Part shown: piece after piece, positions 2,397-12,786 of the stretch | How the letters are laid out: every line of letters begins with the position of its first letter | Numbering within the stretch: position 1 is the stretch's first letter | IMG/VR virus record: IMGVR_UViG_3300035703_000308 | Span: 1-31,828 of that record | Length of the DNA: 31,828 nt | Reading direction: 5' to 3' (one strand) | From: a virus | The notes under the pieces: generated by a model | What the model saw: the letters and a program-made list of their open reading frames with translations, nothing else | What the model was told of the DNA's origin: nothing | The model's database searches: none | Position numbers and translations under genes: made by a program

Positions 2397-2791
2397 ACGT
2401 TTGATTTAGGTACTACAATAAAGTTCTTATATGGCACTCTCTGTATCTTAATGTGCGGTGGATATTCTTTAGCTACTTCCAGAAGATTGTTATAGTAACT
2501 CATAAAGACTATATCATTATTCTTAATGTAGTTCTTTATTTTGGTGTAGTGATAGCTTATTACGGAGTGGTCGTTATATCCGATAAGCCTTGCTATTTGA
2601 GTTAAAGTTACAGGGTAATTATGATATATGTAATGTCCGAGAGCCATTCGCATAGTTGATAGACTTACTGCTCCGACCACTTTTCTTTTCTTACCTCCAG
2701 ATGTTACGAATAAATCTTTGCGAGTGATTCCATAGGACTCGCAGTATTTATCTACGAGTTCGATTAGTTGTTTAGTTTGTTCTTGATTCAT
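2393..2791 (-). CDS. DnaA domain IV-like DNA-binding protein
   Basis: A 132-residue protein whose middle resembles the C-terminal DNA-binding domain of the bacterial initiator DnaA. A helix (about 43-58) is followed by TLTQIARLIGYNDHSVISY, with DHS at 74-76 matching the DHST-type signature of the DnaA box-reading helix, then a long basic helix with KIKNYIK. There is no AAA+ ATPase, so it is a stand-alone domain IV-like protein. It may recognise DnaA-box-like sites in the phage origin or compete with host DnaA; both roles are inferred. Its start overlaps the end of the methyltransferase gene by 20 bases. Confidence 0.7.
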   Translation of the reverse strand: MNQEQTKQLIELVDKYCESYGITRKDLFVTSGGKKRKVVGAVSLSTMRMALGHYIYHNYPVTLTQIARLIGYNDHSVISYHYTKIKNYIKNNDIVFMSYYNNLLEVAKEYPPHIKIQRVPYKNFIVVPKSNV

Positions 2792-3791
2792 ATTGTTGTA
2801 TTGTTTTGAAAATTTGTAAAGCTACTTGTGGTACTATTGCATTGCCTCCTGCTTTGATTGATTCTTTTCGCCATTTAGAAAAGGTAATTCCGTCCAATCT
2901 GTCGGAAAGCCCATCATTTCCAGTACAAAGTGGGGAGACAGATGGGAACGAGTCCCATTTATTCCGTTCAAAACTGAATTCAAATCGCTGTCCCCTTTCC
3001 AATTCTCGGATGGCCATTTTGGAACACAATCCGATGCTCTCGGTGTTGGTAGTATTCCCATTGCCATTGCTCTCGTTAATGTCACCGAGTGCATTGAACC
3101 CTCTTTGACTTGACTCGATTTCATCTCCGCAGTGGCATTTGTAGAGTCCATTGTTGTTGGAGTTGGAAGTAATCCCCTGAATTGAAGTGTCGCATATAAA
3201 TTGCTGTTCCCCTTTATTCCCGATTCCCTTATCGGTTTCGCTACTCCATCCTTGCTTATATGGATTTGATTGTTGCATTGTTGTTCTCCTATCGCCGAAG
3301 CTGTTGGAGTGGGCAACAAACCATACCCGATCCCTTCGATGGGGAGCATTGACGGCTGCAGCTGGCAATACATACGGGAAAACTTCGTACCCTTCAGCTT
3401 CCAGGTCAGCTTGCACTTCGTGGAAAACCAATCCTCCTGACCAATTAACAAGGCCGAGAACGTTCTCGCCAACGACCCAACGGGGCTTAACTTCTCTAAT
3501 GCATCTAAGCATTTCTGGCCAGAGATGTCTCTCATCTTCTTTGCCTTTTCGTTTCCCTGCCATTGAGTAGGGTTGGCAAGGGAATCCTCCTGTGAGAATG
3601 TCAATTCGGTTTGCATATTTTGTAAAATCGGTTTTAGTTATATCGTGAAAAGATTCAGCATTCGGCCAATAATGTTTCAATACTTTTTGACCAAACTCAT
3701 TCCATTCACAATGAAATTTGTTTTCCCACCCCATCCATTCAGCAGCCAGGTCGAAGCCTCCTATACCTGAGAACAGTGATCCGTGAGTCAT
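2772..3791 (-). CDS. dcm: DNA cytosine-5 methyltransferase
   Basis: A 339-residue C5-cytosine methyltransferase that transfers a methyl group from S-adenosylmethionine to cytosine in DNA. Visible motifs are SLFSGIGGFDLA (5-16, cofactor), GGFPCQPYS (68-76, catalytic C72), GENV (108-111), HRRDRVWF (151-158) and a C-terminal GGNAIVPQ (315-322). The region 160-300, normally holding target recognition, is rich in Ser, Asn, Thr and Gly with repeated HSNS/SNSN/TNTES-like segments. That part is read in another frame by the nested gene at 2834-3616. The likely role is protection from host restriction or methylation signalling. No matching restriction enzyme is seen. The start forms an ATGA overlap with ninG. 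Confidence 0.93.
   Translation of the reverse strand: MTHGSLFSGIGGFDLAAEWMGWENKFHCEWNEFGQKVLKHYWPNAESFHDITKTDFTKYANRIDILTGGFPCQPYSMAGKRKGKEDERHLWPEMLRCIREVKPRWVVGENVLGLVNWSGGLVFHEVQADLEAEGYEVFPYVLPAAAVNAPHRRDRVWFVAHSNSFGDRRTTMQQSNPYKQGWSSETDKGIGNKGEQQFICDTSIQGITSNSNNNGLYKCHCGDEIESSQRGFNALGDINESNGNGNTTNTESIGLCSKMAIRELERGQRFEFSFERNKWDSFPSVSPLCTGNDGLSDRLDGITFSKWRKESIKAGGNAIVPQVALQIFKTIQQYESRTN
2834..3616 (-). CDS. Nested overlapping gene: LPTP-repeat, methyltransferase-associated protein
   Basis: A 260-residue open frame lying wholly inside the methyltransferase gene, same strand, other frame. It looks like a real protein. The N-terminal half has SPVGSLARTFSALLIGQEDW and STKCKLTWKLKGTKFSRMY segments (about 44-82). 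Three LPTP repeats follow at 101, 150 and 189 (LLPTPTAS, LLPTPTTMDS, ILPTPRASD), and the end has LSPHFVLEMMGFPTDWTEL (226-244). I recognise this architecture from database proteins that accompany phage cytosine methyltransferases. Each LPTP copy is read by the methyltransferase as AHSNS, TSNSN or TNTES. Function is unknown; a partner or specificity role is possible. It would start at ATG 3616 by internal initiation, and whether it is translated cannot be told from sequence alone. Confidence 0.6.
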   Translation of the reverse strand: MQTELTFSQEDSLANPTQWQGNEKAKKMRDISGQKCLDALEKLSPVGSLARTFSALLIGQEDWFSTKCKLTWKLKGTKFSRMYCQLQPSMLPIEGIGYGLLPTPTASAIGEQQCNNQIHISKDGVAKPIRESGIKGNSNLYATLQFRGLLPTPTTMDSTNATAEMKSSQVKEGSMHSVTLTRAMAMGILPTPRASDCVPKWPSENWKGDSDLNSVLNGINGTRSHLSPHFVLEMMGFPTDWTELPFLNGEKNQSKQEAMQ

Positions 3792-4180
3792 TTGTAGTAG
3801 TTTATTATTTCTTCAAGTTCGCTTCGTGTCCATTTCTTTAATGGATTCTCCAAAGCATATTCTTCTAATTCCTTTACGAACTCTTCTCCATATCTCGATA
3901 CAAGTCCTAAGCGGTATCTAATAAGATTACCTGATAGAAACATATTGCATCTAATACATTGACCATTCGTGTTGTAGTATGCTAACGAATCTGGGAGACC
4001 GAATCTTAGTCCGCTATGTTGACCTTGTGAATGATAGTGTCCTGCTTGCTGAACCTCTGCTCCGCAAGAAATACACCCGAAGTCTTTATCTCTTTCTCGA
4101 ACGTGTGCGTTGAACTTTTCCTGTGCTTTCTTTAATAGCTTCGGGAGAGGGGTTAACTTTTTCTTCGGAGAGTTTTTCAT
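3788..4180 (-). CDS. ninG: NinG-like recombination protein
   Basis: A 130-residue protein like lambda NinG (Rap), a recombination nuclease that acts on branched DNA. A basic N-terminus with LTPLPKLLKKAQEKFNAHVRERD leads to a CISCG zinc-ligand pair, then QAGHYHSQG, a Y-x-x-x-N-x-QC-x-x-CN segment and a C-terminal helix rich in acidic residues. The C-x2-C and C-x2-C pairs with the GHY histidines fit an HNH-like zinc fold. ATG 4180 is chosen because the in-frame codon at 4189 is TTG. The gene overlaps its upstream neighbour by 95 bases, unusually long for this operon. With ERF it suggests phage-encoded recombination. Confidence 0.8.
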   Translation of the reverse strand: MKNSPKKKLTPLPKLLKKAQEKFNAHVRERDKDFGCISCGAEVQQAGHYHSQGQHSGLRFGLPDSLAYYNTNGQCIRCNMFLSGNLIRYRLGLVSRYGEEFVKELEEYALENPLKKWTRSELEEIINYYK

Positions 4181-5014: not shown

Positions 5015-5284
5015 TCAGTAAATATCTTCATCTTCTGATAGGATTTCATCCCAATCAAGTTCGTAAGCTTCTTTCAAAATTCGTTTAGCGAGGTCAGAAT
5101 CTTTATCGACTCCGTTCCAATCCAGAACATCTAATCGGAAAAATCCTTGATGCGGTATGTGGTGAAGGCTTGCAGGTTCGGAATCTTCCCAATCTACTTC
5201 TACAAATAAATCGTAATGAGTGCATACTTCTGTTCCATCTTCTTGCTCATCCCATAGTTCGACTGTAATGTTTAGCTTTCTCAT
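5015..5284 (-). CDS. Acidic hypothetical protein
   Basis: An 89-residue strongly acidic protein. The N-terminal part has strands (LNITVELWDEQEDG, THYDLFVEVDW), the middle has HHIPHQGFFRLDVLDWNGVD, and the end is DWDEILSEDEDIY. High Asp/Glu content can indicate DNA mimicry or a partner-binding protein, but many phage early proteins are acidic and no motif supports a precise role. The start has an ATGA overlap with the ERF stop, so it is expressed with ERF. Confidence 0.55.
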   Translation of the reverse strand: MRKLNITVELWDEQEDGTEVCTHYDLFVEVDWEDSEPASLHHIPHQGFFRLDVLDWNGVDKDSDLAKRILKEAYELDWDEILSEDEDIY

Positions 5285-5877
5285 TTTAGTTTTTTGATGT
5301 GGTTAGATATTTCTTTTTGAGTAGGGTTAGTAACCTGGTCTAAAGGTAACTGCAAATCCTCTAAGCGAAACTGAATCTTCTGATAAGTTTCGTAGTTAAC
5401 GCACTTCTCGATAGATTCAAAAGCTGACTCTCTCTGCTCTTCGGTTAAAGTAGTGTTGAATACTAAGTTACGTAGTATCTGCTTCTCAGCATCGGTAGGT
5501 ACTTCGTGCTTATTTGTTGCATCAGAATCGGCAGTATCATCGATGGCGAAGAGACCATTCAAAGCATATTTCCGAGCATAGCTCGAGGATGCCCCAGAAA
5601 TTTGACTGCCATCCATTCCTTTCTTTTGATCTTCTTCTCTGGCATAAGCTACGGACTCATAGGTCTCAGTTCCGTTAGAAATGCGTGCGGTTGATTTAAT
5701 GTAAAATCGGTTTCCAATAAATACTACCTCATCGGTGAGCGTGAGGTAGAATCCGAGCGGATTGATTACAGGTTTAACGGCTTCTACGATATCCTCGCAA
5801 GAGCGATACTTGTACTTACCGAAGGAGTTAAACTGTCCTTTCGGTGCTTTAATTAGTGATTGAATTTTTGCTAACAT
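5281..5877 (-). CDS. erf: ERF-family single-strand annealing protein
   Basis: A 198-residue ERF-superfamily recombinase, which anneals complementary single strands during phage recombination and genome circularisation. The start MLAKIQSLIKAPKGQFNSFG and following KYKYRSCEDIVEAVKP (about 21-36) are typical, and the diagnostic segment GASSSYARKYALNGLFAIDD lies at about 95-114. The tail (about 120-198) is variable and helical. The frame is open upstream to a TTG at 5919, but ATG 5877, next to a TACCTAT element that also precedes the next gene, gives the family-like N-terminus. It probably works with NinG and the SSB-tailed protein. Confidence 0.88.
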   Translation of the reverse strand: MLAKIQSLIKAPKGQFNSFGKYKYRSCEDIVEAVKPVINPLGFYLTLTDEVVFIGNRFYIKSTARISNGTETYESVAYAREEDQKKGMDGSQISGASSSYARKYALNGLFAIDDTADSDATNKHEVPTDAEKQILRNLVFNTTLTEEQRESAFESIEKCVNYETYQKIQFRLEDLQLPLDQVTNPTQKEISNHIKKLK

Positions 5878-5891
5878 ATAGGTATTTTTTA

Positions 5892-6050
5892 TTAATTTGA
5901 TTCTTTTTGAATTAGCCAATCATAGAAAATATCTGCAATACCTAAAGCAGTTGCAGAATTAAATCCTGCACCGAAAATTACTGCTAATGATAAAGCTAAT
6001 TGTCTATCAGATAAATTATTTAATGGCATTGATATTGTTTGCTTTTGCAT
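5892..6050 (-). CDS. Small membrane-type protein
   Basis: A 52-residue protein starting MQKQTISMPLNNL, with a nonpolar LALSLAVIFGAGFNSATALGI segment (about 17-37) that could span the membrane, and a short DIFYDWLIQKESN tail. ATG 6050 is preceded by CTACCTAT, almost the same element as before ERF; the longer frame starts at GTG 6119 inside a hairpin and is rejected. It lies between the terminator-like hairpin at 6070-6123 and ERF. Function unknown. Confidence 0.5.
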   Translation of the reverse strand: MQKQTISMPLNNLSDRQLALSLAVIFGAGFNSATALGIADIFYDWLIQKESN

Positions 6051-12733: not shown

Positions 12734-12786
12734 TGTAACACCTGTAACACTTGTAACACCCTGTTACACTTGTTACACCTGTTACA
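12734..12786. repeat. Palindromic array: three TGTAACA then three TGTTACA
   Basis: Seven-base units TGTAACA start at 12734, 12743 and 12752, followed by their reverse complement TGTTACA at 12762, 12771 and 12780. Spacing is 9, 9, 10, 9 and 9 bases, so the whole is symmetric around 12760. As RNA it would fold into a long stem with two internal mismatched bubbles; as DNA it offers six protein-binding half-sites. It starts one base after the terminase stop and ends 97 bases before the T5orf172-HTH gene. It could be a terminator, an operator or a nuclease target. Confidence 0.85.

Follow-up and report, generated by a model that had tools for sequence, protein, structure and literature searches.

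What is a stop-free frame of 260 codons doing inside the cytosine methyltransferase gene of a phage, on the same strand as the gene itself? In bacteria and phages there are few documented cases of two conserved proteins sharing a long stretch of the same strand. The window, i.e. the whole stretch of DNA which we analysed, is a virus record of 31.8 kb, in which the methyltransferase gene (dcm, 339 aa) occupies positions 3791-2772 of the minus strand. It is flanked by a NinG homolog at 4180-3788 and, at 2791-2393, by a short protein which weakly matches the DnaA C-terminus. An ERF-type annealing protein (5281-5919) and the NinG homolog (3788-4180) belong to the same minus-strand early region as dcm; far from it, a short tandem array of TGTAACACC units lies at 12734-12786, between two plus-strand genes. 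The nested frame runs on the minus strand from an ATG at 3616 to a stop codon at 2834-2836, with a +1 offset and wholly within dcm. We call alpha what we take to be the protein of the dcm frame and beta what we take to be the protein of the nested +1 frame. The parts of the locus are the following:

2772..3791, minus strand: alpha, the catalytic chain (dcm, 339 aa) of a cytosine-C5 methyltransferase (PF00145 2e-46, TIGR00675 3e-39)
2834..3616, minus strand: beta, the nested protein of 260 aa, a candidate for the subunit with target recognition and motif IX (phrog_1008 8e-29; 298 viral relatives; codon-position constraint; stop depletion)
3314..3616, minus strand: N-terminal part of beta, residues 1-101, which overlaps alpha motifs IV-VIII (helices and a hairpin predicted, at low confidence)
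3170..3316, minus strand: LPTP module 1 (LPTPTASAIGEQ...LQFRGL), also in L007 at position 1 and L120 at position 2
3053..3169, minus strand: LPTP module 2 (LPTPTTMDSTNATAEMKSSQVKEGSMHSVTLTRAMAMGI), in a cluster that spans 56 loci and occupies position 1, 2 or 3
2942..3052, minus strand: LPTP module 3 (LPTPRASDCVPKWPSENWKGDSDLNSVLNGINGTRSH), cluster of 21 loci, at positions 1-4
2882..2941, minus strand: motif-IX-like segment of beta, LSPHFVLEMMGFPTDWTELP, its most conserved part (hhalign to single-chain methyltransferases)
2790..2878 (limits approximate), minus strand: alpha motif X region (SKWRKESIKAGGNAIVPQVALQIFKTI), conserved in alpha (predicted helices)

A first-pass annotation, made from sequence alone, had claimed this stop-free frame, an LSPHFVLEMMGFPTDWTEL end to its product and three LPTP repeats, each of them the shifted reading of a Ser/Asn-rich segment of dcm. 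All of this held and the coordinates were confirmed: the LPTP copies stand at beta residues 101, 150 and 189 (3316-3305, 3169-3158 and 3052-3041), where dcm reads VAHSNS, ITSNSN and NTTNTES. No function had been given for the nested protein; the comparative evidence indicates a second subunit of the same methyltransferase.

Both frames are under selection

We compared 110 distinct homologous dcm genes with versions of themselves in which the dcm codons were shuffled synonymously. The +1 frame contains 4 stops where 501 are expected and is open in 106 of the 110 genes (0.5 expected), while the stops of the +2 frame are near expectation (2108 for 2253). The word LPTP is read 254 times in the +1 frame, for 6.4 expected. 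The +1 frame of the window taken alone stays open in 3% of its synonymous shuffles. When the shuffle is reversed, so that the nested protein is kept, the LPTP zones of 105 genes show no dcm stop at all against 353 expected. Hence, both frames are kept open.

We then counted the differences at dcm codon positions 1, 2 and 3 between 806 close pairs. Before the overlap they amount to 0.128/0.070/0.383; motifs IV-VIII give 0.135/0.069/0.262, the LPTP zone (dcm codons 161-275) 0.473/0.280/0.267 and the motif IX zone (codons 281-300) 0.205/0.060/0.040. At alpha codons 101-150 the third positions have already dropped from 0.38 to values of 0.17-0.26. In this geometry dcm position 3 is nested position 2, and dcm position 1 is nested position 3. 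The rates being inverted in codons 161-275, it follows that constraint acts there on the nested frame; dcm first positions differ at the rate of unconstrained, neutral sites. Amino-acid identity in the LPTP zone is 24% for alpha and 41% for beta, and reaches 78% at the IX end of beta. This means that both frames are under selection, and that in the LPTP zone dcm is maintained as an open frame whose sequence is free.

Dual coding, which the first-pass annotation had proposed over about 800 bases, is thus supported over about 780: it survives both the search for stops in the nested frame of homologous genes, which are almost never present, and the examination of synonymous positions in the overlap, which are strongly constrained. 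Its statement that both frames are conserved held only in part, as in the LPTP zone the nested frame alone is conserved in sequence and dcm is merely open. For the same reason the idea of repeats locked across two frames must be qualified: LPTP is a feature of the beta frame, of which the SNS and NTES readings are a by-product.

Two proposed chains and their single-chain relatives

Alpha satisfies the criteria of a cytosine-C5 enzyme (motif I, PCQ of motif IV, ENV of VI, RxR of VIII, motif X), with FSGIGG, GGFPCQP, GENV, PHxRxR and GNAIVPQ as invariant columns. It fails those of a recognition region and of motif IX, no recognisable copy of the latter being present in the alpha chain, so that the earlier claim that dcm keeps all its motifs was wrong: it keeps I-VIII and X only. 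The homology with M.HhaI ends at residue 166, after VIII, and the Pfam match ends at 244 of 339, before the IX/X end. In the AF2 model, residues 1-176 and 304-339 are folded while 177-303 are disordered (pLDDT about 30); helices are predicted at 304-313 and 321-338, in motif X, with a pLDDT >90 from residue 321. The best PDB matches of this model are M.HhaI structures (Foldseek 2.6e-14, about 166 columns). The middle zone is not conserved, and the stretch of alpha from VIII to X is probably a disordered linker.

Most of beta matches phrog_1008 (8e-29, residues 3-249 to profile positions 36-286 of 329). Searches of Pfam, NCBIfam and PDB with beta gave no match, by which a stand-alone family of known function was ruled out; neither was there any match to a nuclease family. 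The AF2 model of beta alone is poor (pLDDT 57), and the fold search made with it found nothing, a search which is meaningless with a model of such low confidence; the fold of a recognition domain is accordingly not shown for beta. Its most conserved part is the IX-like end, over which alpha third positions are so nearly fixed. By hhalign this end aligns with RLxxAFPEWMMGWPAGWVT of single-chain methyltransferases (E 1.8e-6), over only 25 columns around motif IX, and LSPHFVLEMMGFPTDW aligns with the segment which precedes motif X in these relatives, an assignment resting on homology and not on a structure.

In mycobacteriophage Fancypants and its relatives, one polypeptide contains motifs I-VIII, the LPTP modules, RLxxAFPEWMMGWPAGWVT and motif X, and such proteins span most of PF00145 (1-317 of 324 in L185, 1-313 of 324 in L189). 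In phage NiebruSaylor (gp6/gp5) the same cassette lies in a second gene, in the +1 frame, whose overlap with the first amounts to 209 bases. A single profile, phrog_1008, matches three forms: the beta of the window, the C-terminal parts of single-chain enzymes and NiebruSaylor gp5. Since the single-chain layout, NiebruSaylor, phrog_1008 and the profile alignment all agree, we concluded that beta and the VIII-to-IX segment of the single-chain enzymes are homologous, the segment having been shifted to another frame.

For the first 100 residues of beta, single-chain relatives offer no equivalent in their main frame; a +1 frame of similar content often persists in them. Beta may consequently do more than complement alpha, and a separate role for this part is possible. 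An ATG is found at or upstream of the conserved start region of beta, or within its first codons, in 109 of 109 genes; no promoter signal specific to beta was found.

Several mycobacteriophages deserve a separate mention. Between L192, L193, L195, L197 and L167 on one side and L169-L187 on the other, the cassette of LPTP modules, IX and X alternates between the main and the +1 frame, giving a single-chain or a split enzyme. Some single-chain versions also retain a short +1 frame; it contains an LPTP module and stops just before the LPTP of the main frame. Apart from these, a change of frame in L162 (2489-3226) fuses dcm 1-157 to beta 148-251 in one open frame, as a natural variant or as an assembly error.

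LPTP modules and the spread of the nested layout

Strict LPTP copies number from zero to five per beta. The 275 modules fall into 83 clusters, and a single cluster can occur at different positions and in loci whose alpha identity is as low as 0.48. Module 2 of the window is common to 55 other loci, with alpha identity down to 0.50, and module 1 is found elsewhere only in L007 and L120. When the 5' ends of alpha are more than 93% identical, module content is usually still different: the lengths of the two betas differ by at least 10 residues in 30 of 38 pairs. LPTP modules are therefore exchanged as units, between phages and between positions. In this they resemble exchangeable target-recognition domains or cassettes; that each module would read one site is an inference by analogy.

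A search of IMG/VR with the nested protein gave 298 relatives, and nearly all of the best 80 have both frames open. This set is biased by its query toward the nested protein, and hence a second search used dcm residues 1-76, most of which lie beyond the overlap: a colinear nested homolog is present in 80 of 80 loci (the best 80 of a longer list, some of them shared with the first set). Among bacterial and prophage loci the layout is fully nested in 72 of 80, the bacteria being mainly Bacteroidota, and it also occurs in Paenibacillus larvae Fernvirus and in Lacticaseibacillus and Bacteroides phages. Isolates which have it include Paenibacillus larvae phage Redbud/Rani, Lacticaseibacillus phage R9.1 and Bacteroides phage BKO1-TP3. 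As distant dcm families were not surveyed systematically, the universality of the nested frame is restricted to close relatives of the window dcm. The phrog_1008 entry "DNA methyltransferase" and the Fernvirus "g50 internal gene" (Redbud gp51) belong to the same family as beta; they were annotated by position or clustering only, and no role is given in the annotations we examined. Such internal genes and phrog_1008 annotations were thus already known, without the present explanation; what is new is the breadth of the family, the evidence for selection on two frames, the assignment of recognition to the nested frame and the shuffling of modules.

Some loci depart from the common pattern. In L005, L015/L016, L134 and L144/L145, beta contains a single stop, alpha is intact and both pieces of beta are conserved, for which recent loss, error or recoding are all possible. 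In the GenBank record of Kosakonia phage Kc259 (L168), the nested-type ORF (QVV96923) is annotated and the surrounding dcm frame is not: nested-type frames can supplant the real methyltransferase in annotation. In six loci of Bacteroides and Parabacteroides (L265, L269, L270, L276, L277, L278), beta is open and alpha has in-frame TGA codons, at codon 18 in 6 of 6 (Trp in relatives) and at further sites, including the Trp of KWR, in 4 of 6. Purifying codon-position rates persist in alpha between this group and the others. UGA readthrough, recoding and repeated mutation of TGG to TGA could each account for this; we found no support for UGA recoding in these loci, neighbouring genes having no clear in-frame TGA and no tRNA being nearby.

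A proposed two-chain methyltransferase, its rivals and its meaning

The locus likely encodes a cytosine-C5 DNA methyltransferase made of two chains in overlapping frames, the heterodimer, its activity and its expression being inferred. In this proposal alpha would bind AdoMet and carry catalytic motifs I-VIII and the closing helix of motif X; beta, whose translation would begin at an internal +1-frame start, would supply the parts absent from alpha, namely its tandem LPTP modules as target-recognition domains and motif IX. Once assembled, the two chains would methylate the DNA of the phage, each module probably accounting for one site, and host restriction would be escaped. Phages would alter the specificity by exchanging LPTP modules, which would be tolerated because alpha needs only an open frame there. 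Physical association is inferred from complementarity and homology, and enzyme activity, the one-site rule, the expression of beta and its start codon are likewise inferences. On a bolder reading, toward which we lean only slightly, beta is a modular specificity subunit with one LPTP module for each DNA site that it reads; its specificity is remade by module swaps, the frame of the catalytic partner being an open linker there.

The closest known system is M.EcoHK31I (YGGCCR), a two-polypeptide cytosine-C5 methyltransferase in which motif IX resides in the smaller chain, and motifs I-VIII and X in the large one (PMC3404938, citing Lee et al. 1995). The small chain of M.EcoHK31I is encoded in another frame within the gene of the large one. 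Alpha meets the description of the large chain (I-VIII and X, without IX), and beta that of the small one, by homology and not by structure; the nesting in an alternative frame is shared as well. The predicted target-recognition domain of M.EcoHK31I is assigned to the large chain (PMC3404938), unlike here, where that zone of alpha shows no constraint and is predicted to be disordered, the modules, usually in one to five copies, being in beta; the likeness is drawn from layout alone. M.AquI (CYCGRG) is likewise a two-chain enzyme, the break falling in the variable region from VIII to IX (PMC3404938). NiebruSaylor gp6/gp5 resembles that layout, with motif X in the second chain, whereas in the window motif X remains in alpha and beta is fully nested. 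Multispecific methyltransferases of Bacillus phages (SPbeta/phi3T type) have several exchangeable recognition modules in one cytosine-C5 enzyme. They are single chains in a single frame, unlike the split enzyme of the window, and are not known to contain LPTP modules. In the literature we searched, nothing relevant on nested or overlapping phage methyltransferase genes was found beyond the M.EcoHK31I and M.AquI papers.

Three other explanations must be weighed. The nested frame might be an accident of the amino-acid and codon composition of dcm, without any product; the 3% of shuffles which stay open show that a single gene is weak evidence, but the depletion of stops and the excess of LPTP over 110 genes, the inverted codon-position rates and the exchange of beta-frame modules as units leave this practically no room. 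Beta might instead be an independent protein, which binds DNA, counters restriction or regulates alpha, and not a structural part of the methyltransferase. Its N-terminus without counterpart, the short +1 frame which some mycobacteriophages keep alongside a complete single-chain enzyme and the open beta of loci where alpha has TGA codons speak in favor of this; yet alpha has neither motif IX nor a conserved recognition region, and the absent part is found in frame in relatives, so that we hold it to be unlikely.

Less probable still is that beta has no start of its own and that a programmed +1 frameshift after VIII joins the N-terminus of alpha to the LPTP/IX chain of beta. The alpha and beta frames are indeed colinear with the single-chain enzyme, and L162 is a natural switch of frame of this kind. 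However, beta is also constrained upstream of LPTP, which a shift after VIII does not need, an ATG accompanies the beta start in all the genes, and the transframe product would lack motif X, which stays in the frame of alpha.

Returning to the two-chain reading, on the evidence given the two overlapping proteins are halves of one enzyme, and the overlap is a natural case in which one frame controls the sequence and the other must only remain open. It explains why the middles of such phage dcm genes are variable and rich in Ser, Asn and Thr. We predict that "dcm" genes of this type would be inactive if the nested frame were disturbed on cloning, and that specificity would be readable from the LPTP modules, which bears on methylome prediction, restriction evasion and the engineering of split methyltransferases. 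If M.EcoHK31I is of the same lineage, the assignment of its recognition domain may need revision. Should the bolder reading be true, this would be a combinatorial specificity system nested in the gene of its own enzyme, one that is common among the phages and prophages of Bacteroidota and also occurs in other phages.
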